Part shown: positions 1-16,454 of the stretch, piece by piece | Position numbering within the stretch: the first letter of the stretch is position 1 | Layout: each line of letters opens with the position of its first letter | Assembly: GCF_020859565.1 (NCBI RefSeq) | Contig: NZ_JAJHUO010000014.1 | Span: 186,001-250,000, forward strand | Direction: 5' to 3' | Length of the DNA stretch: 64,000 bases | From: Saccharothrix luteola | GTDB taxonomy: Bacteria > Actinomycetota > Actinomycetes > Mycobacteriales > Pseudonocardiaceae | The notes under the pieces: generated by a model | Told to the model about the DNA's origin: nothing | The model's input: only the letters and a program-made list of their open reading frames with translations | The model's database searches: none | Program-made: the position numbers and the translations under genes

Positions 1-1801
1 CGCTCACCACAGGTGCGAGGATTCCCGCCACGGCGGCTACGACACCGCCGACCACGCCGATCGCCGTCGAGCCGAAGCGGACTCCGGCGAGCACCGCTCC
101 TGCGGCGAGCGTCAGCAACACGAGGCCCGGCCACAGATCACGGCTCGTCTTCGCTTCCCTCCACACGCTTCGTCTGGTCGCGCTGAGGACGCGGAACGCT
201 CGGAAGGGCCGGCGAAGCCAACCCAGCCACCCACCGACTTCCACCCGGGCGACCGACTCGAGTTGTTCAGCGATCTCCGCGCGCGCCTCCACGGCTTCAC
301 GCAGCCGACTCTCCACGCCTGAGCGCGGCTCTTCCCCGCGCGGAGCATCCGCCGACAACTCGCGGAACATGTGCTCGACCAACCCTGTCCACAGGTGATC
401 GTCGCTGTAGTGCCAGGCGTTGAACCGGACCTGCCGCACGTTGGCCACGTAGGCGCTTTCCCGCGGCGCACTGCTCGACGCCTCCGTGAGCGCCGTGACG
501 TGGTCGGCGACTTGGATCATGAAACTGGACTTGCCCGTTCCCCACTCCCCGAGCAGTGCGAGCGAAACCGGCAGCGCCGTGCTCTTCGCCGCCAGCAGGG
601 TCGCGACCGTGACGACATCGGCGCCCATGCCGAGCCGGTCCACGGTGTCGGCGGCATCGCTGGCCACCGCGGAATGCGGCACCGGGGCCATCGCCTCGAG
701 TTCGCTCGACGTCGGATCGGGCAAGGGCGCCAGATCCTCCGCGGCCAACGCTGCCAGGTCTTGGCCGGTGAGGCCGACCCGCCGCGAGTCCTCGTCAGGG
801 AGTACCCCGGTCATCGCCAGGAGCGCGACCAGTGGCTGCAACACACGAGCAGGCGCCACTCGGGGAAACCGGAGGTTGTGATCGGTCCCACCCCGTCGCG
901 GTGCCGTGCCGTACGCCGAGATCACGTGGAAGGTGGTGGGCCCGCTCCGCTGGAGCCGCGGGTGCCGAAGCCCTGCCCGCAGCATCAGGCGTGCGACCTC
1001 TCGACTCTCGTCGTTCATCGCGTCGGCCGACAGCGGCCCCGAAGGCCTGGGGAAGCGCAGCCACTTCGAGACCTCGGGGAGGTAGCGAAGGCGATCGGCG
1101 TTGGTCACCACCACCGCCCACGGGACTGCGCGATCGGGCAAGCGCGCCGACCAGGCCCAGCCACTCGGGTCGGTGAACCTGTCGTCGGACACTGCCGGAA
1201 CAGCCGTGTCAGCCGATTCGAGAACCATCAGCCCACTCACCGCGCGCAGGAAGCGCGACCCGCCGTCGTGCTCCGATTCGAGATCCTCGCCCTGCGGGTC
1301 GAAGAAGACCAGCAGCCTCTGCTGACCGTCGCGGCGCGTGACCAGCAAGGAGAAGTCGTAAGAACGCATCGAATGGCCGGTGCCTGCCGGCACCAGGACC
1401 TGCCCCTGCGAGTACGGAATCACGTTGCGGTCCCGGAAGCTTCTCAACCGCGGGGTATCGAATGGTTCGACCGTGAGGCCGAAGTCCCGGAGACCGCCCG
1501 CGAGCACCTGGTGAACCTGTGCCGCGAGCAGCGTCGACTTCCCTGCCATCGGGACACCGACCAGCCCGATCACGACGGGAGGGCCATAATCCGCGTAACC
1601 CACCGGAAGGTAGTGCTCCGGCGCATCAGCAGAAGGGTTCGGACAGCGCACGTAGCGGTGGTCGACGGGCACCTCGTCGTTTCGGACACGGGCATGGCCG
1701 TCGTCGCCCCAGTACCATTGCGCACTGTCGTCCCAGACGAATGTGTCGAGGCAGACGGGACAGGTCGTGAACGAGGACTGCTCCGCTGCCACCGACGCCA
1801 C
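1..1801 (-). CDS. Double P-loop NTPase with KAP-type domain, 5' part (partial)
   Basis: The reading frame is open from a GTG (preceded by an in-frame TAA two codons upstream) to the window edge, so the C-terminus is missing. About 600 residues are visible. Residues 14-17 (CPVC) and Cys53 look like a zinc ribbon. A first Walker A, GVPMAGKST, lies at 82-90, inside a region resembling the TRAFAC-like GTPases that carry an N-terminal zinc ribbon. A second Walker A, GEWGTGKSS, lies around Lys424 and is followed by VRFNAWHYSDDHLW, the usual KAP P-loop signature. Hydrophobic segments near residues 560-600 would be the membrane insertion typical of KAP NTPases. Such proteins are thought to be membrane-associated switches, often near conflict or signalling genes. 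The exact role is unknown; the GTPase assignment of the first domain is inference. Confidence 0.75.
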   Translation of the reverse strand, partial: MASVAAEQSSFTTCPVCLDTFVWDDSAQWYWGDDGHARVRNDEVPVDHRYVRCPNPSADAPEHYLPVGYADYGPPVVIGLVGVPMAGKSTLLAAQVHQVLAGGLRDFGLTVEPFDTPRLRSFRDRNVIPYSQGQVLVPAGTGHSMRSYDFSLLVTRRDGQQRLLVFFDPQGEDLESEHDGGSRFLRAVSGLMVLESADTAVPAVSDDRFTDPSGWAWSARLPDRAVPWAVVVTNADRLRYLPEVSKWLRFPRPSGPLSADAMNDESREVARLMLRAGLRHPRLQRSGPTTFHVISAYGTAPRRGGTDHNLRFPRVAPARVLQPLVALLAMTGVLPDEDSRRVGLTGQDLAALAAEDLAPLPDPTSSELEAMAPVPHSAVASDAADTVDRLGMGADVVTVATLLAAKSTALPVSLALLGEWGTGKSSFMIQVADHVTALTEASSSAPRESAYVANVRQVRFNAWHYSDDHLWTGLVEHMFRELSADAPRGEEPRSGVESRLREAVEARAEIAEQLESVARVEVGGWLGWLRRPFRAFRVLSATRRSVWREAKTSRDLWPGLVLLTLAAGAVLAGVRFGSTAIGVVGGVVAAVAGILAPVVS

Positions 1802-1907
1802 CCTTTACCTCTGCAACCCGGAGTCCGAACCTCCGCCGCGCTGAGCATAAGGGCTGCTGAACACCCTTCCCGCTTTCCGCACATCTGCGGATCATGAGTG
1901 GGCGGAG

Positions 1908-1935
1908 GAGCCCGGTCGTCCCGGACGCCGGGCTC
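1908..1935 (-). terminator. Hairpin after the RiPP operon
   Basis: An 8-bp perfect inverted repeat, GAGCCCGG at 1908-1915 and CCGGGCTC at 1928-1935, separated by 12 nt. It begins 37 nt beyond the stop of the last RiPP gene and lies before the next minus-strand start. It has no U-tract, which is common in high-GC actinomycetes. It is a plausible transcription end for the 7787-to-1972 operon. Confidence 0.4.
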
Positions 1936-1971
1936 GCGCCGAACACCGCCGCCCGTGAAGCGGTGACGGGT

Positions 1972-2643
1972 TCAGACGATCATCGACGGCCAGGGCCAGC
2001 GGCGGACGCGGTAGGGCAGCCACCAGGCGAAGGCGTCCACGGTGCCGACAAGACCCTCGTCGATGAGGTGGGCGAGGACGTCCGGGGGTATCGAGTCCGA
2101 CCGCGCACCCGGCATCAGGGTTTCCACCGCGGCGAGGTAGTCGGGATCGTCGATGACGAAGCGCGACAGGTCACCCGCCCGGCGGTCCCTGACCTCCAGG
2201 AAGCCCGGACCGTGCCGGTGGATGCACTTGCACAGGTAGTACGTGCTCCGCCACTGCTCCAGGACCGCGTCGGCGTCGGGGTGGTCCGGCATGGCGCGCG
2301 GCGGGTGGAAGTGGTTCAGGCGCGTCCACACGTCCTGGTTCTTGCCGGAGATCATGGTCCAGTCGTAGGCGACGCTCCAACTGGTCAGCTCGCGCAGGAA
2401 GACCATGAGCCACACCAGGGTCCTGGCGTCCATCCCGCCGGAGAGGTCCACCGGGCTGCCGACGGAGACCTTGCGGACGCCCCTCGCGTACAGGTCCGCG
2501 GCCGTGGCCTGCGGGTCGCCCGAGGCGGGCTGCTCCCCCATCGCCAGCTCCGGCAGGTGCAGGACGGCGTCGTCGTGGTCGCGCCAGAGCAGCAGCGGGA
2601 CGGGGGCGGGTCGGTGCTCGAAGGCCTGGACGGCGGCGGTCAC
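1972..2643 (-). CDS. DUF5825-like RiPP partner protein
   Basis: A 223-residue soluble protein. Its GTG overlaps the stop of the radical SAM gene in a GTGA junction, so the two are translationally coupled. Features are an N-terminal segment with alternating hydrophobics, a central WTMISGKNQDVW region, and the C-terminal segment CIHRHGPGFLEVRDRR followed by FVIDDPDYLAAVETL. I associate that pattern with the DUF5825 proteins that accompany radical SAM RiPP maturases of this type in actinomycetes. No catalytic motif is evident. A role as a precursor-binding or partner subunit is inference from the coupling. It is the last gene of the RiPP operon, followed by a hairpin. Assignment to the family is from memory of the motif, not from a search. 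Confidence 0.65.
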   Translation of the reverse strand: MTAAVQAFEHRPAPVPLLLWRDHDDAVLHLPELAMGEQPASGDPQATAADLYARGVRKVSVGSPVDLSGGMDARTLVWLMVFLRELTSWSVAYDWTMISGKNQDVWTRLNHFHPPRAMPDHPDADAVLEQWRSTYYLCKCIHRHGPGFLEVRDRRAGDLSRFVIDDPDYLAAVETLMPGARSDSIPPDVLAHLIDEGLVGTVDAFAWWLPYRVRRWPWPSMIV

Positions 2644-4538
2644 GCGGGCACCTCCTCGATGTCGGGCCGGGTGTGCTCCGGTTCGGAGTCGGGCCGGGGC
2701 AGTCTCATCAGGTCCTGGTTGCGGGCGATCGGCGCCACGTGCACGTACGTGTCGCACTCGGTGAACAGCACCCCGAGCCGCAGCCACTCCGTCAGGACGT
2801 CGGCGATCCGGCCCGGGTCGGCGTCCAGCCCCGCCGCGGCGAGCTTGCGCGACAGCGCGCCCGGCGCGTGCGGTTGGTCGAGCAGGCGGAACAGCGCGAC
2901 CTCCCACGGGTCGTCCAGCCACCGGCTGGTCCAGTCGAAGTCCGCGCGGCGGCTGACGAGCAGGATCCGGTCGCCGAGGTCGGTGTGGCTGAGCCTGCTG
3001 GTGGGGAACTCGCGCTGCCACCGGTCGGCCGCGTCGCGCAACCGGTCGCCGATGTCCTCGCCCACGCCGAGCGAGTCGGAGGTGAACAGGTAGGCCAGGT
3101 CCATCAGCTCGCTGTGCGGGAGGTCGTAGTTCATCGCGTACTGCGTGCCGGGCCCCAGGTTGGCGAACCCGAGTTCCGGGCGGTTGAAGTACGGGCTGAA
3201 CCGCTCGATGACGATCCGCGCGACGCCCTCCACCGGCGGCAGGTGGTGCAGGGCCGGCATCTGCTCGATCACCGGCAGGTAGTCGTCCTCGGTCTCGCCC
3301 GGGAAGCCGTAGAGGTAGTTCCACGCGATGGACAGGCCCTCCGACGCCGCGTCGCGCAGCATCCGCACGTTGTGGCAGCCCGTCACGCCCTTGTCCATGA
3401 TCTTGAGGACCCGGCTGTTGAGGTTCTCGACGCCGGGCTGCACGTTGACCAGCCCGGCCGCGGCGAGCGTGGAGAGCTGGCCGCGGTTCATGTTCGACTT
3501 GATCTCGTACTGCATGCGCAGGTCGTAGCCGGACTCGATGATCGTGGGCAGCAGGGTGCGCACGTAGTTCATGTCCAGGATGTTGTCCACGACGAACATG
3601 TCCAGCACCTGGTGCTTGCGCACCAGCTCGACGATCTCGTCCCAGAAGACCTCCGGGCTCTTGCTGCGGAACTGCATGAACGACCCGTTGAGCCCGCAGA
3701 AGGTGCAGTGGTGCTTCTCGCCCCACCAGCAGCCGCGCGCGCCTTCCACGACCAGCTTCGGGTCCAGCCAGTCGCGCACCACCGACGCGTCGAGGCGCTC
3801 GAAGTAGCCGTCGTACTCGGGCGCCACGATCTGCGCGGGCGCCAGCGGCGTGGTCACCATGGGGTTGACCACCGCGGCGCCGTCGTCGTCCCGCCAGCAC
3901 AGGCCGGGCACCTCGGCGGGCGGGGCGCCGTCGTGCATCGCCTTGACGAGGGCGGGGAAGGAGACCTCGCCCTCACCGCGCAGCACGTAGTCGACGAACG
4001 GGAAGTTGCGGTGGATCGCCTCGCCCTGCACGCCGTCGCAGTTCGCCCCGCCCATGGCCACGCGGACGTGCGGCAGGATCCGCTTGAGCTCCTTGGCCAC
4101 CGCGAGCGCGGGCACGTTCTGCTGGAACGTGGAGGTGAACCCGACCAGGTCGGGTTTGCTCTCGGCGATGCGCCGAGCGGTCTCCGCGACGAACTCCGGC
4201 GCGGTCTCGTGCAGCTCCAAGGACATCGCGCGCTGCTCGTCCGGCATCGGCACCAGCTCGTCCAGCTCGGCCTCGCGCCAGTGCGGGTCGTCGTAGAGCG
4301 CCGAGGTGAACACCCAGTCCCCGACGCCCTGGAAGTAGGTGTCGAGCGAGTAGAAGTAGTAGTCGCGGACGGTGAACGACCTGCGCTCGGCGATCCAGTC
4401 CACGTAGTCCAGGTTGGCGTGCACGACCTCGACCGAGGTACCGGGGACCTCGCGGCGCACCGCCGAGCTGAGGATGCCCAGCGCCAGCGAGGGCACGTCT
4501 ATCAGCGCCCACGGCATGTTGACCAGAACGATTCGCAC
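2640..4538 (-). CDS. B12-type radical SAM RiPP maturase (rSAM_ocin_1-like)
   Basis: 632 residues from a GTG start. Residues about 1-205 form a cobalamin-binding-like domain (MRIVLVNMPW at the N-terminus; GFTSTFQQNVPALAVAKEL and VAMGGANCDG inside). The radical SAM cluster motif follows: Cys270, Cys278 and Cys281 in GCWWGEKHHCTFCGLNG, a CX7CX2C spacing. That exact context is characteristic of the ribosomal peptide maturation radical SAM protein 1 group. A C-terminal region of about 120 residues looks like a substrate-recognition or winged-helix part. Members of B12 radical SAM families commonly methylate unactivated carbons; which reaction occurs here cannot be read from sequence. It lies 103 nt downstream of the precursor gene and is coupled by GTGA to the DUF5825-like gene. 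Confidence 0.88.
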   Translation of the reverse strand: MRIVLVNMPWALIDVPSLALGILSSAVRREVPGTSVEVVHANLDYVDWIAERRSFTVRDYYFYSLDTYFQGVGDWVFTSALYDDPHWREAELDELVPMPDEQRAMSLELHETAPEFVAETARRIAESKPDLVGFTSTFQQNVPALAVAKELKRILPHVRVAMGGANCDGVQGEAIHRNFPFVDYVLRGEGEVSFPALVKAMHDGAPPAEVPGLCWRDDDGAAVVNPMVTTPLAPAQIVAPEYDGYFERLDASVVRDWLDPKLVVEGARGCWWGEKHHCTFCGLNGSFMQFRSKSPEVFWDEIVELVRKHQVLDMFVVDNILDMNYVRTLLPTIIESGYDLRMQYEIKSNMNRGQLSTLAAAGLVNVQPGVENLNSRVLKIMDKGVTGCHNVRMLRDAASEGLSIAWNYLYGFPGETEDDYLPVIEQMPALHHLPPVEGVARIVIERFSPYFNRPELGFANLGPGTQYAMNYDLPHSELMDLAYLFTSDSLGVGEDIGDRLRDAADRWQREFPTSRLSHTDLGDRILLVSRRADFDWTSRWLDDPWEVALFRLLDQPHAPGALSRKLAAAGLDADPGRIADVLTEWLRLGVLFTECDTYVHVAPIARNQDLMRLPRPDSEPEHTRPDIEEVPA

Positions 4539-4591
4539 TGCGGCTCGCTTTCGTCGTGCTCGCGTCTGTGGTGTCCGGATCCGGGGGGTGG

Positions 4592-4620
4592 GAGGCGGGC
4601 GATCGGGTACCGCCCGCCTC
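4592..4620 (-). terminator. Intercistronic hairpin between precursor and radical SAM gene
   Basis: A perfect 10-bp inverted repeat, GAGGCGGGCG (4592-4601) and CGCCCGCCTC (4611-4620), with a 9-nt loop. It sits 22 nt beyond the precursor stop and 54 nt before the maturase start. In RiPP operons a hairpin here usually acts as a leaky terminator or RNA-stabilising structure that gives more precursor than enzyme. That function is inferred from position. Confidence 0.6.
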
Positions 4621-4641
4621 TGCCACCTGGGTGGCGTGACG

Positions 4642-4737
4642 TCAGAAGCTGACCTTGACGGACACGCTCACCTCGACACCGCGGCTCTGGTCGCGGTTGC
4701 CGCTGATCGGGTCGTTCTTGATGACGCGCTTGCGCAT
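4642..4737 (-). CDS. RiPP precursor peptide, 31 residues
   Basis: Short ORF with the best ribosome binding site in the neighbourhood: GGAGGTGA ends 4 nt before the ATG. It encodes a 31-residue peptide with a basic N-terminus (MRKRVIKNDPIS), a GNRDQSRG stretch, and an alternating C-terminus GVEVSVSVKVSF in which Val occupies every second position. It lies between the S9 peptidase and the radical SAM gene, on the same strand and with a hairpin behind it, which is the classic place for a precursor. The leader would be roughly the first 19 residues and the core the V-x-V-x tail; the cleavage point is a guess. No similarity to a named peptide was recognised. Confidence 0.8.
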   Translation of the reverse strand: MRKRVIKNDPISGNRDQSRGVEVSVSVKVSF

Positions 4738-4797
4738 GTGGTCACCTCCCTCCTGTGGTCGGGGCGGACGGGTCCGGCCCGGTGCCGGGGCCCTCGT

Positions 4798-6546
4798 TCA
4801 TCCCGTCTTGGCGGGGGCGGCGATCTCCCGTCCCCCGAGCGCCGTCGCGACGAAGCTCACGACGGAGCCGATGATCTGGCGGTGGACCGCGCCGGTGCGG
4901 CCTTCGTGGCCGGAAGGGGCCCACTGGAGCTCGTGCTCGACGCCGTGCGCCTCCAGCGCCGCGACGTAGGCGGCGACCTGGTCCGGTGGGCAGCGGTCGT
5001 CCTCGGTGCCCGCCAGGATCAGCACCGGCGCCCGCACGGAGGCGACGTGGGACATCGGGGACGCCGCGGCGTACGCGGCGGGCCGCTGGTCGGGGTCCCC
5101 GCCGAAGATGCGGCGGTCGAGGGCCCGCACGGCGGGTGTGGCGCCGCGGTAGGCGGCGACGTAGTCCGCGATCGGGTTGACCGCCGCGACCGCACGCCAC
5201 AGCTCCGGCTGGACGCCCGCGGCGAGCAGGGCGAGGTAGCCGCCCCACGACGTGCCCACCACCGCCGTGCGGTCCTCGTCTGCCACGCCCGCGGCGACGA
5301 GGTGCTCGCGCACGGCGGCGAGGTCGAGGAGCTGCGTGTGACCGGGGCCGTCGGAGAAGTCGTTGCGCCAGGCCGGTCCGTAGCCCGTCGAGCCGCGGTA
5401 GTTCGGCCTGACCACGGTGCAGCCGATGCCCGTGAAGACCGAGACCAGGGCGTCGTAGGCGTCGCGGGCGGCGGTGTGCGGGCCACCGTGCAGCAGGAAC
5501 ACGGTGGGGTGCGGTCCGGGTGAGTCCGGCGCGGTGAGCAGCGCGTGCACGGGTCCTGCCGGGGTGTCGACCCACACCTCGCTCGTCACGCCCGCCACGG
5601 TCGCGTTCCGCCGGCCGCCGAGCGACCACCGGCCCGACGCGGTGCGCAGGTGCGGCGGGTGCGTCGCGTCGGTCCACACGTAGTGCAGGTCGCCGTCGGG
5701 CTGCACCTGGGCGGCCAGGATGCTCCCGCGCGGCGTCGGCACGGGCGCGTCGGTCCGCCGCTCCAGGTCGAGTTCGCGCAGTTCGGACCGGGCGTGCCGG
5801 TCCCGGCGCACCAGGACCCGCCTGCCGTCGGGGTACCAGGTCGGCGCGATCTCGGTGTCGGAGTCGAACCAGCGCAGCTCGCGGACGCCGCCGTCCGGGG
5901 TCCACTCGGCCAGGCGGTAGGCGGTGTCGTCCGCGGCGGTCAGCAGCAGCCGTTCCGGGCCTTCGACCGGGGCGAACCCCGAGACCCACAGGACTCGTCC
6001 CGGCAGCCGCAGCGGCAGCCGTTCGCCCGTGGCCAGGTCCAGCACCACCGCGGGCACCGGGTCCTCGGGGTCGCGGGCGAGCACGGCCAGGCGGCCGGAG
6101 TGGGACAGGTCGACGAGCGTGGTGTGGCCGTCGAAGTCGCCGACGTGGTCCACCCGGCCGTCCGGGCTCCTCCGGTAGACCGAGAGGCCGTCGTGGCCGA
6201 CGCCGACGGCGGCAGTGCCGTCGGCGGACATGGCGAGCCCGGCCGCGCGTCCGGGCGGCAACCCGGCGTCCTCGGAGTCCCCGCCGCCGAACGGGGTGAT
6301 CCGCCAGCGGCCCACCCCTCCGAGGTCGTCGTCGAACCACCACACCCGGGCGCCGGTCGGGTCGATCGCGCAGGTGATGGTGCCCTGCGGTCGGTCGGTG
6401 ACCTGACGCGCGCCCGCGGCGGACCGGGCGAACACCTCGCACCGGCCGTCCACGTCACCGATGTAGACCGCGCGGTCGGGCGCGAACTCGGCGAAGGCGG
6501 GCACCTCCGGGAAGAACACCTGCACGTCGATCTGCACGGCGGTCAC
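4798..6546 (-). CDS. S9 family (prolyl oligopeptidase-type) serine peptidase
   Basis: 582 residues from a GTG that overlaps the MFS stop (GTGA). The N-terminal 300 or so residues have the repeating beta-strand character of a beta-propeller, with short W-x-P-D-G-type repeats. The C-terminal alpha/beta-hydrolase domain has HGGPHTA for the oxyanion region and the nucleophile Ser433 in GTSWGGY. Asp516 or Asp517 (GTEDDRCPP) and His547 (SGHEG) complete a triad. No signal peptide is seen, so it is cytosolic. S9 peptidases cut short peptides because the propeller restricts access, so it fits removal of the leader from the 31-residue modified precursor encoded 60 nt downstream. Substrate is inference; fold and triad are visible. 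Confidence 0.88.
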   Translation of the reverse strand: MTAVQIDVQVFFPEVPAFAEFAPDRAVYIGDVDGRCEVFARSAAGARQVTDRPQGTITCAIDPTGARVWWFDDDLGGVGRWRITPFGGGDSEDAGLPPGRAAGLAMSADGTAAVGVGHDGLSVYRRSPDGRVDHVGDFDGHTTLVDLSHSGRLAVLARDPEDPVPAVVLDLATGERLPLRLPGRVLWVSGFAPVEGPERLLLTAADDTAYRLAEWTPDGGVRELRWFDSDTEIAPTWYPDGRRVLVRRDRHARSELRELDLERRTDAPVPTPRGSILAAQVQPDGDLHYVWTDATHPPHLRTASGRWSLGGRRNATVAGVTSEVWVDTPAGPVHALLTAPDSPGPHPTVFLLHGGPHTAARDAYDALVSVFTGIGCTVVRPNYRGSTGYGPAWRNDFSDGPGHTQLLDLAAVREHLVAAGVADEDRTAVVGTSWGGYLALLAAGVQPELWRAVAAVNPIADYVAAYRGATPAVRALDRRIFGGDPDQRPAAYAAASPMSHVASVRAPVLILAGTEDDRCPPDQVAAYVAALEAHGVEHELQWAPSGHEGRTGAVHRQIIGSVVSFVATALGGREIAAPAKTG

Positions 6547-7787
6547 TCCTCTACCGGCTCGGGGGTGCGGTCGGCCCCGGACGGCGCCGCCAGGGACCGC
6601 ACGGTCGCGGTCGTGTAGAGCGCGATCGCCACCAGCGCCGCCCCGAGCACCACGGCGACGAAGGCCGGGGCGAGCGCGGCGACGAGCACGCCCGCGGCGA
6701 GGGGCGCCACCGCGCCCGTGCCCTCGCCGACGACGCCCAGCGCGGTCCCGACCCGGCCCTGCATCCCGTCCGGGGTGCTGGTGATCGCCTTGCTCTGGAA
6801 CGCGATGCTCAGCGCGGGGGTGAGGGCCGACACAGCGGCCAGCAGGACTCCCATCACCAGCGGCGGCGGAGTGGTCGTGAACAGGAACGCGACGACGACG
6901 ACCAGCCACGAGACGACCAGGACCAGGCGGGTCGGCGCGAAGCGGCGCAGGAAGAAGGGCGCGACCAGCGCCCCGCACAGGCCCGCCACCCCCGCCGCGG
7001 TGAGCAGCAGGCCGATCGTGGCGGCGGACGCGCCGTGCAGGCGCGCGACGAGGATGACGTGGAAGTACAGCGCGCCCAGCACCAGGTTGACGCTCGCGGC
7101 CCACGTGACCATGAACCGCAGGAACGGTTCGGCCCACAGGAACCGCACGCCGTCGGCGAAGTCGCGCAGGAAGGAGGACTTGTGTTCCTCCGTCCGCGCC
7201 GGTCGCAGGTCCGAGCTGAGCAGGCCCGCGCACAGGGCGGTGACCGCGTAGGCGAAGGCGTGGACGAGGAAGGGCGCCCAAGGCGCGACCTGGTACAGGC
7301 CACCGCCGATGCCCGGTCCGGCGAGCTTGGCGGCCTTCTCCCTGGCCTGCAAGGCGCCGAGCGCGCCCGCCGGGTCGTCCGTCGGGAGGATCGCGCGGAT
7401 GGCGCCCGACGCGGCGGCCGCGTAGCAGGCGGTGGCCACGCCTTCCACGACCGCGGCGGCGAACAGCACCGGCAACGACGCCCGACCCGTGAGCACCACG
7501 AGCGCGATCACCGTCGCCGCGCAGGCCGCGACCAGGGCGGAGATCACCATCATCGGCCGGCGTGGCACGCGGTCGGCGTAGACGCCCGCCGCCGGCGAGA
7601 CCAGCACCTCGGCCAACCCGACCACCGTCCCCAGCACGCCCGCCGTCAGCGGCGAGCCGCCGAGCAGCAGGACCAGCACCGGCAGCACCAGCGCCGAGGC
7701 GTGCGAGCCGAGCAGGGCAGCCGCGCCACCGAGCCAGAACAGCCGGAAGTCCCGGTGTCCGCGCACGCTGGTCCCGACCACCGACAT
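6543..7787 (-). CDS. MFS exporter of the RiPP operon
   Basis: 414 residues, about 12 hydrophobic segments, beginning MSVVGTSVRGHRDFRLFWLGG. The loop YADRVPRRPMM between helices 2 and 3 matches the MFS motif (D-R-x-x-R-R). The overall layout resembles the MFS_3 or enterobactin-exporter-like subfamily. It is the first gene of the minus-strand operon; its stop overlaps the GTG of the peptidase, so both are translated together. The likely job is export of, and self-protection from, the mature RiPP. A GGGAG lies upstream of the ATG. The C-terminal tail is hydrophilic. Substrate cannot be read from sequence. Confidence 0.87.
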   Translation of the reverse strand: MSVVGTSVRGHRDFRLFWLGGAAALLGSHASALVLPVLVLLLGGSPLTAGVLGTVVGLAEVLVSPAAGVYADRVPRRPMMVISALVAACAATVIALVVLTGRASLPVLFAAAVVEGVATACYAAAASGAIRAILPTDDPAGALGALQAREKAAKLAGPGIGGGLYQVAPWAPFLVHAFAYAVTALCAGLLSSDLRPARTEEHKSSFLRDFADGVRFLWAEPFLRFMVTWAASVNLVLGALYFHVILVARLHGASAATIGLLLTAAGVAGLCGALVAPFFLRRFAPTRLVLVVSWLVVVVAFLFTTTPPPLVMGVLLAAVSALTPALSIAFQSKAITSTPDGMQGRVGTALGVVGEGTGAVAPLAAGVLVAALAPAFVAVVLGAALVAIALYTTATVRSLAAPSGADRTPEPVEE

Positions 7788-8396
7788 CCCGTGGTTCTCC
7801 CGTCTTCCGGAATTGCGAAATCAAATCCGTGCGACGAACGGCGCACGGTCGGTTCGACGAACGGGTTCAGGACCGCCCTTTTCGGGGATAACGAGACCGA
7901 GGCAAGCCTGATATCGCGTCGACAACCCCTGTTTCACCAGTGGCAGCGGATGCTTCCCCGGAATTTATACACGCCCGACCAAGACCCGTCATGCACCCCG
8001 GCAGAGCAATTCCGCTGGCGTACGGACCATGGACAACTCCAACGGACGCAACCCGCGCGGAAGTCCGAAGCAATGGCCTTCGTTCGGTATTGCGCAACCG
8101 CGGTGACCCAGCGACCCTGTGTCTTCCGAGAAGCCCATCCATGCAGGTAGAGGACGTACAAACCCAAGAGGCGTCGCCCACTCACGGACGGCTGCCGTCC
8201 GCCGTGACGTTGATCGACACGGCAGATGGCCGGCCGTGCTGATCCGTTTTGCCTAAGGACGCCACGGCGCCGGATCACCGTCCTGCAACGTCGACCGGGC
8301 AATGCCCGTCCGCAGTTCCCCATCGGCGGCCGAGCATTCCTCGTGGCATTACTGAACCGAATCGCTCCGCGAGCGCCTGGGCCCGAAGACCGACTT
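7788..8396. other. Intergenic region upstream of the RiPP operon
   Basis: About 600 bases with lower GC than the flanks and no ORF of convincing composition; the 100-130-codon ORFs here have no recognisable domain and poor codon-position bias. Next to the MFS start there is a direct repeat, CGACGAACGG at 7832-7841 and 7855-7864 (period 23), within the promoter-proximal 80 bases. The region probably carries the RiPP operon promoter. I see no RNA gene. Confidence 0.4.
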
Positions 8397-9143
8397 TCAG
8401 GCGCCTTCGGCAGGCTTTCCCGTACCCGCGACAGCGCCGGGTTCGTCCGGTCGGCGCGGCACGAGAATGCGCCAGCCGTCCGGCAGGGGTGGCAGGGCGA
8501 CGTCTTCCCCGCGGAGGAAGTCCGCCCTCCACCGCTCCCGGCGGCGGGCGTACCGGTGCTCCAGCACGGCGGCGATGAGGCAGCAGACCAGGGCGGCCGC
8601 CACGGTCACCCGAGCGTGCGCCCCGGCCGACCAGACCAGGACCGTCGTCACCACGGTGAGCAAGAGCAGGTCGTACAGCACCCGAACCACCTTGCCCCAC
8701 AAGGGCGTCGGGACGTCGGCGCGCAGGTCCGTCAGGGTGTCGACCTCGTCCGCGCCGTACTCGCGGATGCGTGCGACCTCTGCCGTGCGCCGGCGCCACT
8801 CCTGGAAGGCCTCGATGATCGCGTTCGCGCCGGCCACGCCCAACCCGACACCGGCGGCGGTGGTGAACCACGCGTCCGGGCCCACGGCGACCACCGCCGC
8901 CGCGGCCAGGAGATCCAACACACCCGACGCCACCGACAACCCCAGGTCGCGCCGGAGGAGTCCGCGCGGCAGCGCCCCGCGGCCGATCGACGTCGCCACC
9001 GGGCGCAGCGCGACCATGTTGACCACCTCGTCACGCGCCCGCCGAACCCCCTCGTCCACCGGCGCCTCCCAGCACTCCTCCCGCGAGCACACGGATCCCC
9101 GTTCCGGCGACTCGTCAAACGCTGCCGCCCGGCCACCGGCCAT
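8397..9143 (-). CDS. Hypothetical membrane protein
   Basis: About 248 residues from the chosen ATG; the frame is open to 9209 and no start has a good ribosome binding site. Two hydrophobic pairs are visible: LGLSVASGVLDLLAAAAVVAV with TAAGVGLGVAGANAII, and VLYDLLLLTVVTTVLVW with VTVAAALVCCLIAAVL. Between them is a charged segment (FQEWRRRTAEVARIREYGADEV). The C-terminus is soluble and ends PLPDGWRILVPRRPDEPG. No known family is recognised. It is transcribed away from the hydrolase at 9270 and is preceded by the RiPP-side intergenic region. Function unknown. Confidence 0.6.
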   Translation of the reverse strand: MAGGRAAAFDESPERGSVCSREECWEAPVDEGVRRARDEVVNMVALRPVATSIGRGALPRGLLRRDLGLSVASGVLDLLAAAAVVAVGPDAWFTTAAGVGLGVAGANAIIEAFQEWRRRTAEVARIREYGADEVDTLTDLRADVPTPLWGKVVRVLYDLLLLTVVTTVLVWSAGAHARVTVAAALVCCLIAAVLEHRYARRRERWRADFLRGEDVALPPLPDGWRILVPRRPDEPGAVAGTGKPAEGA

Positions 9144-9269
9144 CACGGGTCGCCGTCGGATCACGGCCGGCTCATACCAAAGTCGGGCCACCGGTAGCCG
9201 AAGGGGCACTGTCGATCACGGGCACGCCGACTACGGTTTGCCCGTCGCCGTGTCGAAGAAGTCCAAGGG

Positions 9270-10274
9270 GTGTGGGTCTTGTCAGGTGCAACGCTTGCGG
9301 AGAGATCGGTCGCGCGCCTGGGGCCTCGGCACCCGGTGGCCGCCGTCGCCACGGTCTCGCCCGCCGGGACCTCGGTGGCGAGCGTGGGCGCGCCCGACGA
9401 CGCCGACTTCGAGATCGGCTCGATCTCCAAGGGGATCACCGGCCTGCTCTACACCGACGCGCGGGAACGCGGCGAGATCGGGCCGTCCACCACGCTGGGC
9501 GACCTGCTGCCGCTGGACGGCACCCCGGTGGCGGGCGTGACGCTGTCCTCCATCACCACCCACCACTCGGGCCTGCCGAGCCTGCCCGCCTCGGCCTCGC
9601 TGCTGCGCAGGTCGCTGGCGCTGTGGCTGCACGGCGCGAACCCGTACGGCGAAACGCTCGATGAGTTGCTCACCCAGGCACGTGGCGTGCGCCCCGGCCC
9701 ACCCCGCCCCCGCTACTCCAACCTGGGCTTCCAACTCCTGGGCCACGCCCTGGGGAGCGCCGCCGGCACGACGTTCCAGGACCTGCTCCGCGACCGGGTC
9801 GCCACCCCTCTCGGCTTGGAGGTGTGCTACGCGCCCGCCACCCCGGCCGACCTGCGACCGGCCGCGCTCAACGGCACCACCAGGTGGGGCCGCAAGCGTC
9901 AGCCGTGGACCGGTGAAGCGCTGGGGCCGGCCGGGGGCATCCGCGCGCGCATCGGCGACATGGCCCGCCTCGCCGCCGCGCTCCTCGACGGCTCCGCGCC
10001 CGGCACCGCCGCCTTGGAACCCGTCGAGGACTTCACCGGCCGGGTGGTGCGCATCGGCGCGGCGTGGATCACGCTCGAGCGCAACGGCCGTGCGATCACG
10101 TGGCACAACGGCGGCACCGGGGGCTTCCGCAGCTGGCTGGGCCTGGACCGCGCGGCGGGCACCGCGGTGGTCGTCCTCTCCGCGACCGCGATCTCGGTGG
10201 ACCGGCACGGTTTCGCGCTGCTCGAGCAGCTGACCGAGGAAGAAGGCCATCGAGTTTCTGCTGCGGGGGACTAG
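9270..10274 (+). CDS. Beta-lactamase-fold serine hydrolase
   Basis: 334 residues from GTG. The class C beta-lactamase / D,D-peptidase-like motifs are all present: S51-x-x-K54 in GSISKG, the YxN motif in RYSNLGFQLLG, and HNGGTGGF near the C-terminus as the third motif. These enzymes hydrolyse esters, amides or D-amino-acid peptides; the substrate is not deducible. No signal peptide is evident, so it is probably intracellular. It is monocistronic and convergent with the anti-sigma-like gene; the two TAG stop codons overlap in a CTAG palindrome at 10271-10274, leaving no room for an intergenic terminator. Confidence 0.85.
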   Translation: MWVLSGATLAERSVARLGPRHPVAAVATVSPAGTSVASVGAPDDADFEIGSISKGITGLLYTDARERGEIGPSTTLGDLLPLDGTPVAGVTLSSITTHHSGLPSLPASASLLRRSLALWLHGANPYGETLDELLTQARGVRPGPPRPRYSNLGFQLLGHALGSAAGTTFQDLLRDRVATPLGLEVCYAPATPADLRPAALNGTTRWGRKRQPWTGEALGPAGGIRARIGDMARLAAALLDGSAPGTAALEPVEDFTGRVVRIGAAWITLERNGRAITWHNGGTGGFRSWLGLDRAAGTAVVVLSATAISVDRHGFALLEQLTEEEGHRVSAAGD

Positions 10275-11182
10275 CCCGGGAACATCGTCAGTGCCGGGTC
10301 GACGCCGATCTCGACCAGCTGGTCGAGGGTCAGCGGCGGCTTCGACGCGGTCGGCGCGCCACCGATCTTGCCGGAGGTGTCGATGTTCTCGGCCTGCACG
10401 AGGATCCGCGTGCCGTCCTCGCGGTGGACCAGCACCTGGTTCATGGTGATGCCGCCTCCCATGTCCGCCGTCTGCTTGACGATCTCCTCACCCCGGGGGC
10501 CGGTCTCCGCCACGCAGGACGTCCGGGTCCCGAGGCCGGGATAGGAACACACGGGGCCCAGGCCGTCGTGCCAGGTCGGCGCCATGAGGACGAAGATGTT
10601 CCCGCTCCCGTCCGCCGTGGTCGTGGTCGCCGACGCCTCGAAGGTGGCGTCGGTGTCGCAGATGGACAGCTCGACACCCGGATCCGTCGGGTTCACCTGG
10701 TAGTAGTCGAGCGGCCCGTGTGGCGTGCCCGCGGGGTAGTCGCCCGCGGGGTTGGCCGACAGCTTCAGGTCCGGCCGTTGTGCCTTGACCGCGTCGGTCG
10801 TCGCCAGGGTCAGCCGCGCGGCGGCTTCGGCCGCGGGCTCCAGCCTGCCCCCGCACGGGGGCGGTGGCACCTTGTCATCCACGATGTCGACCGACGACGT
10901 GGACACCTTGGATTCGGCCGGCTGGTGCTGCGTGGTCGAGGACGGCGACATTGCGGACGTGGTGCCCGGCGACCCGCCGATCGGCGCGCCCCCGCCGTCG
11001 CCGCTGGTCAGCGTGTACGCGACGGCGCCGGTCAGCACCACGACGGCCACTCCGGCGGCGACCGCCGGGTTCGCCACCCGGCGAAGCCGGACCGCGCGGC
11101 GGCCGCGGGCGATGACCGCGTCCACGTCGACCGTGGACGGCGGCACCTCCCCGATCGCGTCGTCGAACAGTTGCTTGTCCAT
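10271..11182 (-). CDS. Single-pass membrane protein coupled to a SigE-family sigma factor
   Basis: 303 residues; the ATG shares a base with the sigma stop (TGATG). The N-terminal cytoplasmic part (MDKQLFDDAIGEVPPSTVDVDAVIARGRRAVRL) is followed by one transmembrane helix (ANPAVAAGVAVVVLTGAVAYTL), a Ser/Thr/Gly-rich linker and an exported domain with a CGGR motif and several further Cys. This is the layout of the putative anti-sigma or regulatory partners found beside SigE-family sigma factors in actinomycetes. The short N-terminus lacks a zinc-binding HxxxCxxC anti-sigma motif, so direct sigma inhibition is only an inference. Confidence 0.75.
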   Translation of the reverse strand: MDKQLFDDAIGEVPPSTVDVDAVIARGRRAVRLRRVANPAVAAGVAVVVLTGAVAYTLTSGDGGGAPIGGSPGTTSAMSPSSTTQHQPAESKVSTSSVDIVDDKVPPPPCGGRLEPAAEAAARLTLATTDAVKAQRPDLKLSANPAGDYPAGTPHGPLDYYQVNPTDPGVELSICDTDATFEASATTTTADGSGNIFVLMAPTWHDGLGPVCSYPGLGTRTSCVAETGPRGEEIVKQTADMGGGITMNQVLVHREDGTRILVQAENIDTSGKIGGAPTASKPPLTLDQLVEIGVDPALTMFPG

Positions 11183-11682
11183 CAGTACCCCTCCCTGGTC
11201 GCCTGCGCGGCGCTGGTGCGCAACGTGTCGAGACCTCGCGCGGTCTGGCTCTTCACGGTGCCCACCGAACAGCCGAGGATCTCGGCGGTCTCCTCCACCG
11301 AGAGGTCGAGGTAGAGGCGCAGGACGACGGCGGCCCGCCGCCTCGGCGGGAGACCGTCGAGCAGGTCGAGCAGCTGGGCCCGGTTGACGACGGCGAACTC
11401 GGCCGTCGTCGGCAGTTCCGGCAGCTCCTCCACGGACTGCTCGCGACGCCACGGCCTCCGCTTCTCGTCCAGCCAGGTGCGCAGCAGCGCCTTGCGGACG
11501 TACGCGTCGATGCCGGCCGTCGCGCCGACCCTCGGCCAGTGCCGGTACAGCTTGCTGATGGTGATCGACACGAGGTCGTCCGCCGTGTGCCAGTCCCGGC
11601 ACAGGAGGTACGCGGTGCGCCGCAAGGGCTCCAACCGAGCCGTCACGTACTCGCGGTACGCGTTCTCCTCGGACCGTTTCAC
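11182..11682 (-). CDS. SigE-family ECF RNA polymerase sigma factor
   Basis: 166 residues. The GTG at 11682 is chosen because AGGAGGT lies 7 nt upstream; the frame is open further but without a ribosome binding site. Region 2 is seen in ARLEPLRRTAYLLCRDWHTADDLVSITISKLY and region 4 in LPPRRRAAVVLRLYLDLSVEETAEILGCSVGTVKSQTARGLDTLR. It would direct RNA polymerase to a small regulon, together with the coupled membrane protein downstream. Its 5' end faces the uptake island across 135 bases of shared promoter DNA. Its own promoter targets cannot be named from this window. Confidence 0.88.
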   Translation of the reverse strand: MKRSEENAYREYVTARLEPLRRTAYLLCRDWHTADDLVSITISKLYRHWPRVGATAGIDAYVRKALLRTWLDEKRRPWRREQSVEELPELPTTAEFAVVNRAQLLDLLDGLPPRRRAAVVLRLYLDLSVEETAEILGCSVGTVKSQTARGLDTLRTSAAQATREGY

Positions 11683-11817
11683 CTCGATGACCTCCTGTGT
11701 CGTGCCTCTACACAAGCAGGAACGCACCCTGTGCGCCGCGAGGTTGCCCGGTGATGGAAATGATCGTGAACCCGTTCGTGGGCCGGCGCGTTCGTCGTCC
11801 CATGATCCAGGTCACTG

Positions 11818-11846
11818 TTGATAACGGTTATCAGTGCGGTTAGGCT
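11818..11846 (+). promoter_or_regulatory. Promoter with overlapping 7-1-7 Fur-family operator
   Basis: A perfect 15-bp palindrome TGATAACGGTTATCA lies at 11819-11833. Its geometry (7-1-7) and sequence match the known TGATAATnATTATCA type of Fur/Zur box. It overlaps a -35 hexamer TTGATA (11818-11823), which is 17 bases from a -10 hexamer TAGGCT (11841-11846). Binding here would block the promoter of the FecCD operon. The Fur-family gene 7.3 kb downstream in the same island is the obvious candidate repressor. Confidence 0.75.
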
Positions 11847-11883
11847 CGCGCGGTCCCCCCTGCTCAGAGTGATCGGCTTCGTC

Positions 11884-12989
11884 ATGGCTGTTCGTCCCCG
11901 GTCGTCCCGGTCGGCCGACCGTGATCGGCGGGTGTCCGCGCGCCGGTCGCCAACCGCGCAGCGGGTGGTGGTCTCGGCGCTCGCCCTCGCGATCCTGGTG
12001 CTGGTGGTCGTCTCCGGTTCGGTCGGGACGGTCGAGGTGGGGGTCGTGGACACGGCGCGAATCGTGGTCGGGCACCTCGTGCCGAACATGCCGTGGATGT
12101 CGGACGGCAGCCTGACCGTGTTGCAGGACCAGGCGGTGTGGCAGTTCCGGTTGCCGCGCGCGTTGTTGGCCGGTCTCGCCGGGGCGGGGCTGGCGTTGGC
12201 CGGGTCGATCATGCAGGTGATCGTGCGCAACCCGCTGGCCGAGCCGTACCTGCTCGGTGTGTCGTCCGGCGCGGGGGTCGGGGCGGTGCTGGTCATCACG
12301 CTCGGGTCGGCGGCCGTGGGCGGCCTTCCGCTCGGCGCGGCGGCGTTCGCCGGGGCGTTGGTGGCCAGCGCGTGCGTCGCGCTCGCCGCACGGCACCGCG
12401 GCGTGCTGTCGCCGACCAGGATGATCCTGTCGGGGGTGGCCCTGGGTTCGCTGTTCAGCGCGGTGACGAGCTACCTGACGTTGACGACCGAGGCGCAGAA
12501 CGTGTTCAGCGTCCTGTTCTTCCTGCTGGGCAGCGTGTCCGCCGCGTCCATGGGCTCGCTGGTCGTGCCCGCGGTGGCGTTCGTGGTCGCGTGCGTCGTC
12601 GTCGGGTTGCGGACGCGGGCGATGAACGCGCTGTTGACCGGTGACGAGTCCGCGACGGCGTTGGGCGTGGACGTCAACCGGCTGCGGGCCGTCCTCCTGG
12701 TGACGTCGGCGCTGCTGACCGGGTCGATCGTCTCGGTCAGCGGCGGCATCGGCTTCGTCGGCCTGGTGATCCCGCACGTGGCGCGCATCCTCGTGGGCGC
12801 CGACCACCGGCGGATGCTCCCGGTCGCGGTGCTCGGCGGTGCGGCGTTCCTGATGCTCGCGGACCTGTTGTCGCGCACGGTCGCCGCACCCGCGGAAGTG
12901 CCCATCGGCATCCTCACCGCGGTGGTGGGCGCGCCGTTCTTCCTGTGGCTGATGCGCCGAGACACGGGCGCACGGGCGGGGCTGGACCG

Positions 12990-12993
<4 letters not shown>
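11884..12993 (+). CDS. FecCD-family metal/siderophore ABC permease
   Basis: 369 residues from ATG 11884; the frame extends to 11818 but that would place the operator and promoter inside the gene. The body has 9-10 hydrophobic helices and the family's typical stretches: RLPRALLAGLAGAGLALAGS, NPLAEPYLLGVSSGA, LTGDESATALGV and GGIGFVGLVIPHVARILVG. It forms the inner-membrane channel of a BtuC-type importer for an iron or other metal chelate, with the ATPase and binding lipoprotein encoded directly downstream. Its stop overlaps the ATPase ATG (ATGA). Regulation is probably by the Fur-family operator immediately upstream. Confidence 0.92.
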
Positions 12994-13785
<792 letters not shown>

Positions 13786-13802
<17 letters not shown>

Positions 13803-14793
13803 CACCCTGTCCCTGCTCGCGATCGGCATCGGCGTCACGCTGGTCGCCGGCTGCGGTTCCCCGGTCACCCCGACCACCCCGACGAGCGCCGCCGGCGGCG
13901 CGGTCACGATCACCAACTGCGGCCGGGAGGTCACCGTCGCCGGCGCGCCGGGCGCGGCGGTCGGGTTGAGCCCGTCGCAGACCGAGCTGCTGCTCCGGCT
14001 GGGCCTCGCGGGGTCGCTCGTCGGGCAGGCGCAGACGGCCACCGCACCGCTGCCGGAGGACGTGGCGGGTCTGGCCGCGGACGTCGCGGTGCTGAGCGAG
14101 TCCAAGCCGCCGAGCCGGGAGCAGCTGCTGAACGCGAAGCCGGACTTCGTGTTCTCGCCGACGACGTACGAGTTCAACGCCGAGCAGGGCTTCGCGAGCC
14201 TGGAGCAGCTCCGGGAGGCGGGCGTCGCGGCGTACGTCGCCACCGGAGGGTGCGCCGACCGGCGCATGAGCGGCACGGTCGAGGACGTCTTCACCGACCT
14301 GGAGAACCTCGGCAAGGTCTTCGCCGTGCCCGACAAGGCCGCGCCGCTGATCGAGAAGGGGAAGGCCGACCTGGCCGAGGTGGACGCGGCGCTCGCCAAC
14401 CGCGAGAAGCCGACCGTCGCCCAGGTGTACCTGGAGGGCACCACCGTGACCGCGATCGGCGCCGGGATCGAGTACGACATCATCCGCCGGGCGGGCGGGG
14501 ACAACGTGTTCTCGCCGCAGGACCCGCAGTTCGCGAAGTTCTTCGCCGCGCAGATCACCCCGGAGGCGCTGGCCGCCGCCAACCCCGACGCGCTGGTGTT
14601 CGCCGCCAACTCCCCCGAGCACCGGCAGTCCACCGTCGACTACCTGACCCGCACGTTCCCCGACATGACCGCGGTGCGCGAGCAGCGGCTGATCGCGATC
14701 GACGCCTCCGACACCTACCCGGGCACGCTCGGGAACGTCTCCGTGGTGCGGGAGATCGCCGAGCGGCTGCACCCGGACGCCTTCACGTCGTGA
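13786..14793 (+). CDS. Metallophore-binding lipoprotein
   Basis: 335 residues from the first of two close ATGs (the other is at 13795). A signal sequence with lipobox VAGC puts the acylated Cys at residue 23. The mature protein has the class III binding-protein layout: GLSPSQTELLLRLGLAGSLVGQ near the N-terminus, a long linking helix, then ALVFAANSPEHRQSTVDYL and a C-terminal lobe ending VREIAERLHPDAF. It would capture the metal complex outside the membrane for the FecCD importer. Its stop overlaps the GTG of the next gene. The ligand (siderophore, zincophore or other) is not deducible. Confidence 0.87.
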
Positions 14794-16454
14794 TCCACCG
14801 CAGGCTGCTGCACCTGGCGGGTGTCGTCCTCGGGCCGATCGCGCTGCTGGCGGTGCTGTCGGCGCTGGTGTCGGCCTGCCACGTCACCGGGGCCGTGCTG
14901 ACGGCCGCCGTCCTCGCCGACCTCACCGGCGGGGACGGCGCCGGCGTGGTGCCCCTGATCGCGGCGCTCGTCGGCGTCGTCGCGGTGCGAGCGGCCCTGC
15001 TGTGGCTGCGGGAGGTCGCCGCCGCCAGGTTCGGCATCGCCATCCGCACCCGGTTGCGCGGCGAGCTGCTGCGCCGCATCACCGCGCTGGGGCCGGCGTG
15101 GGCGCAGGGGGAACGGTCCGGCGCGATCACCCACACGGTCGTGGACGGCGTGGAGGCCCTCGACGCCTACTACAGCCGCTACCTGCCTCAGCTGCTGGTG
15201 ACGTGCCTCGTGCCCGCCGCCGTGACCGGGTGGCTGTTCACGGTCTCGGTCCCGGCCGCCACCGCCCTCGCCTCGGCGGTGCTGTGCGCCGTGGTCGTCC
15301 CCCGCTTCTGGGACGCCCGGCTGCTCCGGACGGGACGGGACCGTTGGCGCGCTTACGAGAAGCTCGCGGCGGACTACCTGGAGGCGACCCAGGCGATCGG
15401 CGTCCTGCGGGTGTTCGGCGCGGGGAAGCGGACCGGTGACGCGCTCGCCGCACGCGGCGAACACCTGCACCGCGCCACGATGGCCCAGCTGCGGGTCTCG
15501 CTCGTGGAGTCGGCCGTCAGCGCGCTCGCCCTGCACCTGGGCACCGCCGCCACCATCGTCGTCGCCTGCGCCGGAGTCCTCGGCGGCACCGCGCCGTCGG
15601 GGTCGGTGCTGCTGTTCCTGCTGTGCGCCAGGGAGTGCTTCCGCCCGGTGCTCGACCTGTCGGCCCACTGGCACCTCGGCTACCAGGGGCTGGGCGCGGT
15701 GGAGGGCATCGACGAGATCCTCACCGCACGCCCGGCCGTCGCGGACACCGGCACGCGCACCGATCCCGCGTCTCCCGGGGCGGGGCTGCGGTTGCGCCAC
15801 GTCGGCTACCGGTACCCGAACGGGGCAGGGGTGGCGGACGTCGGCTTCGACTGCGCGCCCGGTGCCACCACCGGGATCGTCGGCCCGTCGGGTGCGGGCA
15901 AGAGCACGCTCGCCCGGCTCATCATCCGGCACGTCGACCCGCAGCACGGGACGATCGAACTCGACGGCACCCCGATCACCGACTACACCCTCGCCGCCCT
16001 GCGCGCGAGCATCGCGGTCGTCGGCCAGCACACGCACCTGTTCCACGGCACCGTGGCGGAGAACCTGCGCCTCGCCCGCCCCGACTCCACGCCGGAGGAG
16101 GTCCGCACCGCCGCCCACGTCGCCGACGCGCTCGACTTCATCGAGGCGCTCCCCCGGGGCTTCGACACGGTGCTCACCGAGAACGGGTCCCGGCTCTCCG
16201 GCGGGCAGCGGCAACGGCTCGCCATCGCCAGGGCCGTGCTCGCCGCGACACCCGTGCTGCTGCTGGACGAGGCCACCTCCGCCTTGGACGTCGACACCGA
16301 GGCCCGCGTCCTCACCCGGCTCGCCGAGCACCGCCCGGGCACCACCCGGATCGTCATCGCGCACCGCGAGAGCGCCCTGCGCGACGCCGACGCGGTCGTC
16401 ACGATCGAATCCGGCCGCGTCGCCGGCGTCGTCCCCTCGGCGGCACGACGATGA
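14790..16454 (+). CDS. ABC half-transporter 1 (membrane and ATPase domains)
   Basis: 554 residues from a GTG overlapping the binding-protein stop. Six hydrophobic helices fill residues about 1-310, then an ATPase domain with Walker A GPSGAGKST, signature LSGGQRQRLAIARAV, Walker B VLLLDEATSALD and HRES switch. It pairs with the next gene as a heterodimer. Such tandem half-transporters beside FecCD importers are known in siderophore loci (YbtP/YbtQ- or IrtAB-like) and move the chelate or release its metal at the inner membrane; CydD-like exporters look similar. Its place in one operon under a Fur-type operator supports a role in metal uptake. Confidence 0.87.
   Translation: MIHRRLLHLAGVVLGPIALLAVLSALVSACHVTGAVLTAAVLADLTGGDGAGVVPLIAALVGVVAVRAALLWLREVAAARFGIAIRTRLRGELLRRITALGPAWAQGERSGAITHTVVDGVEALDAYYSRYLPQLLVTCLVPAAVTGWLFTVSVPAATALASAVLCAVVVPRFWDARLLRTGRDRWRAYEKLAADYLEATQAIGVLRVFGAGKRTGDALAARGEHLHRATMAQLRVSLVESAVSALALHLGTAATIVVACAGVLGGTAPSGSVLLFLLCARECFRPVLDLSAHWHLGYQGLGAVEGIDEILTARPAVADTGTRTDPASPGAGLRLRHVGYRYPNGAGVADVGFDCAPGATTGIVGPSGAGKSTLARLIIRHVDPQHGTIELDGTPITDYTLAALRASIAVVGQHTHLFHGTVAENLRLARPDSTPEEVRTAAHVADALDFIEALPRGFDTVLTENGSRLSGGQRQRLAIARAVLAATPVLLLDEATSALDVDTEARVLTRLAEHRPGTTRIVIAHRESALRDADAVVTIESGRVAGVVPSAARR

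Follow-up and report, generated by a model that had tools for sequence, protein, structure and literature searches.

A stretch of 64,000 nucleotides from Saccharothrix luteola (Pseudonocardiaceae; assembly GCF_020859565.1, contig NZ_JAJHUO010000014.1, positions 186,001-250,000), here called the window, carries five genes that form one minus-strand operon, namely a major facilitator superfamily (MFS) exporter, an S9 peptidase of the prolyl oligopeptidase (POP) type, a 31-residue precursor peptide, a B12-binding radical S-adenosylmethionine (rSAM) enzyme and a DUF5825 protein. We hold with good confidence that this operon makes a C-methylated ribosomally synthesised and post-translationally modified peptide (RiPP) of the clavusporin type, and it appears to be a further operon of the clavusporin kind with a variant precursor, whose core contains no proline and is not followed by a C-terminal extension. 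An earlier note on this DNA had described a RiPP operon in which a precursor gene of 31 codons lay hidden; its five genes lie at the coordinates it gave, and both the RiPP operon and the hidden precursor are now strongly supported. The features of the operon are as follows.

1972..2643, minus strand: DUF5825 partner, 223 amino acids (PF19142, 225.6 bits against a cut-off of 25)
2640..4538, minus strand: B12-binding rSAM enzyme of 632 amino acids, matching profile TIGR03975
4592..4620, minus strand: hairpin with a 12-pair stem (one G-T pair) and a 5-base loop, between the precursor and rSAM genes, directly 3' of the precursor
4642..4737, minus strand: RiPP precursor MRKRVIKNDPISGNRDQSRGVEVSVSVKVSF, 31 amino acids, with an NDP-motif leader and a C-terminal alternating core
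4742..4754, minus strand: Shine-Dalgarno sequence of the precursor, AGGAGGGAGGTGA, read in the sequence
4798..6546, minus strand: S9/prolyl-oligopeptidase-type peptidase, 582 amino acids (PF00326, 136.6 bits against a cut-off of 22.6)
6543..7787, minus strand: MFS exporter, 414 amino acids (PF07690, MFS_1, 108 bits against a cut-off of 33.4)
1969..7801, minus strand: DNA similarity to the operon of Actinokineospora spheciospongiae, 88% over 5837 columns

The peptide is encoded by a real gene, and the conservation of its small open reading frame (ORF) goes far beyond chance. Related loci were taken as the best 80 of 524 rSAM relatives obtained by scanning genome contigs with the window rSAM, and a strict scan looked upstream of rSAM for an ORF of 24-60 amino acids in which the leader motif [N/D/G][D/N]P[L/I] begins at residue 7-10. 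Of 79 loci (the window and its 80 relatives, minus two that lie at contig edges), 77 carry such an ORF in this position, while the same scan gave none on the opposite strand and none in a stretch 3 kb downstream (0/76); L051 and L053 derive from one assembly. The ORF is missing from L023, where the gap contains a run of N, and from L054, which is also without a match to the window POP and MFS. The earlier note had named the lack of a conserved small ORF in homologous loci beforehand as a result that would refute its proposal, and the proposal clearly withstands that test. The precursor gene of A. spheciospongiae (L001) matches that of the window exactly over its first 19 codons; further on, four codons are different, three with an amino-acid change, and all four lie in the core or next to it. 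Where a residue is shared, its codon is also the same in 0.78-0.88 of cases in the neighbouring genes, so the 19-codon run is, on a rough estimate, only mildly unusual.

Translation signals point the same way. The strength of each start site was expressed as the pairing energy between the 16S tail and the 20 bases before the start, a measure for which the first percentile of 1000 random 20-mers is -14.2 kcal/mol. The precursor, at -21.6 kcal/mol, has the strongest of the five starts, as the earlier note had read it, followed by DUF5825 (-15.5), MFS (-9.7), rSAM (-8.3) and POP (-5.8 kcal/mol), and the ribosome site of the precursor outranks that of rSAM in 80 of 81 loci (L001 and L130 being one genome). 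A frame as short as 31 codons, in G+C-rich DNA where open frames abound, could in principle arise by chance and leave the enzymes to act on another substrate, but we give this next to no credence in view of the 77 of 79 loci against empty controls, the unchanged leader codons beside changing core codons, and the ribosome site of unequalled strength in the operon.

The rSAM enzyme and the DUF5825 protein, which together would modify this peptide, are encoded side by side, as expected of a clavusporin-type operon. The rSAM enzyme matches TIGR03975, the profile for RiPP maturation radical SAM C-methyltransferases, with 580.9 bits over residues 3-602 (cut-off 281.85), and its B12-binding (PF02310, 44.3 bits, cut-off 32.1) and Radical_SAM (PF04055, 44.1 bits, cut-off 29.5) domains both exceed their thresholds; the CX7CX2C cluster motif reported earlier is present as CWWGEKHHCTFC at residue 270. 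Among solved sequences it has two distinct matches at E <=0.001, TokK and one radical SAM core protein. The partner is indeed DUF5825-like, with 24 invariant columns in an alignment of 65 rows, and a profile of these 65 sequences matched no solved chain even at E 10. According to PMC12257519 and its preprint, PMC12026744, the clavusporins are C-methylated by a pair of B12-rSAM and DUF5825, and PMC12951456 has their leader taken off by MpcP, a POP. The description of the operon as probably uncharacterised is thus half sustained: no description of a product of the window precursor was found in the literature reached by the search, but a homologous pair and a leader-removing POP have already been reported.

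A crosslinking function has to be weighed against methylation, as B12-rSAM enzymes of RiPP clusters can make C-C crosslinks; PbsB does so in a biphenomycin-like pathway, according to PMC12257519. By the same paper, however, PbsB couples two aromatic residues alongside an MNIO enzyme, C-methylation is credited to the B12-rSAM that is paired with DUF5825, and the biphenomycin-like clusters with YHxYxY precursors carry a second B12-rSAM with DUF5825 as well. The window core, V-E-V-S-V-S-V-K-V-S-F, has five valines and one Phe, no Tyr or Trp and no C-terminal follower, and the operon has no MNIO. Because there is neither an aromatic pair nor an MNIO, we set a crosslinked product aside as very improbable; of the two mass shifts expected for the peptide, steps of +14 Da are likelier and -2 Da crosslinks less likely.

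The precursors come in several layouts, 66 distinct ones having been collected from 81 loci (76 of the best 80, L127-L130 and the window). Those of Streptomyces mostly resemble MQKDIIHNDPLAGDEENRKPGIGITITVPFRNAEDGEED, in which the core is followed by an acidic tail. The layout of the window, MRKx[I/V][I/V]xNDPIxGNRDQxR with small variations, then V-x-V-x-V-x-V-x-F and an end at Phe, is found also in A. spheciospongiae, L127 and the Micromonospora loci L003, L005, L020 and L039, and the precursor of L014 (Streptomyces xylophagus) likewise ends at its core. In a tree of the rSAM enzymes (55 rows, a quick method with SH-aLRT support only) the window groups with L001 (100), next with L127 (99) and then with L014 (96). 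The Micromonospora loci form a starred clade apart from these, and the tree therefore does not show the follower-free precursors to be one clade. A third layout, MKRRSVRNDPI...RDRGAVxV with a long Pro/Ala-rich tail, occurs in the related operons L128 and L129.

For 11 cores, with limits cut by eye, the pattern of hydrophobic residues was compared with shuffles. Alternation in the window core is perfect over 11 of 11 positions, which only 0.0026 of shuffles equal, and it is likewise perfect in L001, L003, L005, L020, L002, L009 and L018 (0.0024-0.0104) and nearly so in L127 (0.014). In a beta strand, such an arrangement would turn every hydrophobic side chain of the window core to the same face, and a small peptide of amphipathic character is therefore to be expected after methylation.

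A cut after Pro10 to remove the leader is held with less confidence than C-methylation. The peptidase carries GTSWGGY from residue 431, AGTEDDR from 512 and PSGHEG from 544, motifs that, going by the family, should contain the catalytic triad of Ser, Asp and His, and by sequence its best solved chains are acylamino-acid-releasing enzymes. No proline other than Pro10, within the leader motif, occurs in every one of the 66 distinct precursors, as Pro10 does; in nine of them, including that of the window, it is the sole proline, and all nine loci have the S9 peptidase. Most Streptomyces precursors also have Pro20, and many Pro29.

A sister group bears on the same residue. This comprises 12 rSAM/DUF5825 loci of the same family (L132-L143), each with a tiny ORF that was detected with a looser motif in 12 of 12 and by all-against-all comparison in 10 of 12. 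These ORFs begin 135-174 bases before rSAM (MKKTTVHNDPKETVGSGPVGVRIS and MKKKTVHNSPHAIGGGTTGVRISK are examples) and encode 24-35 residues as read (24-29 in nine of the 12, with doubt about the start codon in L132, L134 and L135), with TV[H/Y]N[D/N/S]P in the leader and tails such as GVRIS(LK), GVRVSK and TVRVSK. No match to the window S9 peptidase was present in the stretches fetched for these loci, which for L137 reach only 1.2 kb upstream of rSAM. In the more distant loci L131 and L144-L146, the looser motif revealed no such tiny ORF. L131 has, directly upstream of its B12-rSAM/DUF5825 pair, a second radical SAM gene (6812-8008, plus strand) of the SPASM-peptide-maturase-like kind (best profile TIGR04463, 94.6 bits, far below its cut-off of 525).

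Some observations count against a clavusporin-like scheme for the window. Where its leader meets its core there is no proline, unlike in most Streptomyces precursors, which leaves the position of the peptidase cut uncertain; the amphipathic pattern does not extend to every precursor, since the cores of L015 and L066 alternate no more than their shuffles do (0.44 and 0.14); and each of the 12 sister loci, which have no detected S9 peptidase, retains N-x-P. The last of these led us to reject a POP cut site as the sole explanation for Pro10 and makes the motif a part of the leader common to the DUF5825 group, not just a peptidase site.

Directly behind the precursor gene, a predicted RNA hairpin is conserved in these operons. 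Folding was assessed in 80 loci (L130 dropped) over at most 80 bases after the precursor, and the median z was -3.55 there, against -1.09 before the precursor and +0.78 after rSAM. Values below -2 were reached by 67 of the 80 loci after the precursor, by 16 in the 80 bases before it and by two after rSAM, and an uninterrupted stem of at least 10 pairs was present in 72, 12 and one, respectively; L003 and L128 have short uninterrupted stems (five and seven pairs) yet z of -4.25 and -4.31. The hairpin is likely to raise the amount of precursor over enzyme, whether by partial termination or by protection of the mRNA end.

Operon order and strand are those of the window in all 70 of the 80 related loci in which all five parts were found (an automatic count gave 69 and missed only L001, in which the MFS match overlaps the POP match by a single base); in the other 10 a part went undetected, several of these lying at a contig edge. 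Both GTGA couplings proposed earlier are present, at 6546-6543, where the POP start lies inside the MFS stop, and at 2643-2640, where the DUF5825 start lies inside the rSAM stop. The MFS protein, 84% to its A. spheciospongiae counterpart, scores 135.7 bits with TIGR00900, below the cut-off of 319.6.

The operon has likely, though not provably, been transferred between genera. When window positions 1-16000 were set against the initial 20 kb of the contig from A. spheciospongiae (L149), nothing was alike outside 1969-7801, and the similarity stops 14 bases before the MFS start. Further along the window's contig on the DUF5825 side (L147) the only match is in the overlap with the operon, the A. 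spheciospongiae contig reaching only about 2.1 kb beyond the operon there, so that dissimilarity on this side rests on a short stretch. Third-position identity between the two is 0.79-0.87 for the operon genes, highest for rSAM, against 0.80 for rpoB, 0.80 for recA and 0.75 for tyrS (these three genes only, by best tblastx match), which fits transfer without proving it. The genome of the window has one DUF5825 gene; the family search found DUF5825 in 37 of 390 genomes and, among the genomes listed, in none of 20 others of the same genus, and a class-wide draw found it in 16 of 394. Next to the operon lie genes for a beta-lactamase-family protein (9270-10274, plus strand; PF00144) and for a protein without Pfam or NCBIfam match (8397-9209, minus strand), both outside the stretch common to A. 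spheciospongiae.

Put together, these features suggest the following route. The ribosome would make the 31-residue precursor in abundance, by virtue of the strong ribosome site and the hairpin behind the gene; B12-rSAM together with DUF5825 would recognise the N-D-P leader and methylate unactivated carbons of V-E-V-S-V-S-V-K-V-S-F, most plausibly those of the valines and/or the Phe; the POP-type peptidase may then take off the leader after Pro10, the one proline that the precursor contains, and export of the product would fall to the MFS protein. That product is likely to be a C-methylated amphipathic peptide and perhaps a surfactant, which, by analogy with the clavusporins, may help aerial growth; we place the surfactant role, like the Pro10 cut, below C-methylation in confidence. 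The clavusporin study (Nat Chem Biol 2025) reportedly describes peptides that lower surface tension and aid Streptomyces development, from an operon widespread in actinomycetes; if so, the window operon falls within what that study already announced. Another use for a C-methylated product, be it antibacterial, signalling or metal binding, seems to us rather unlikely, even though other RiPPs C-methylated by B12-rSAM enzymes are antibiotics or bacterial toxins (bottromycin, polytheonamide). We suggest only tentatively that the window and its nearest relatives define a distinct DUF5825-RiPP chemotype, in which a follower-free C-methylated V-x-V-x-V-x-V-x-F ends in a free Phe, the POP cuts at Pro10 or at a non-proline site, the hairpin governs how much peptide is made relative to enzyme, and the complete operon moves from genus to genus as a self-contained cassette.

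DUF5825 with a B12 radical SAM enzyme reportedly installs methyl groups on amino acids, a reaction widely useful in peptide chemistry, and a small proline-free core with five Val and one Phe could reveal both the methylated residues and the peptidase cut. The 66 distinct precursors and the shorter sister precursors define a leader motif that they have in common and form a natural library of substrates.

Among known systems, the biphenomycin-like pathways share a B12-rSAM with the window and differ in their MNIO, their aromatic FHxFxF/YHxYxY motif and their crosslinking, the five genes of the window being without an MNIO and its precursor having a single aromatic. The sister loci share the rSAM/DUF5825 pair and the N-x-P leader but have shorter precursors and no detected S9 peptidase. 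The clavusporins (mpc genes) are alike in the B12-rSAM and DUF5825 pair, a POP-type peptidase and a peptide substrate; the window precursor may differ in ending at its core and having no proline beside it, and the host family is other than that of Streptomyces. The Streptomyces loci, of which L009 (MQKDIIHNDPLAGDEENRKPGIGITITVPFRTAEEGEED) is an example, agree with the window in the order of the operon, the NDP motif of the leader, the alternation of the core and the hairpin behind the precursor gene, whereas their cores are rich in I and T, with KP before the core, VP inside it and an acidic follower, and their rSAM enzymes are about 60% identical to that of the window.

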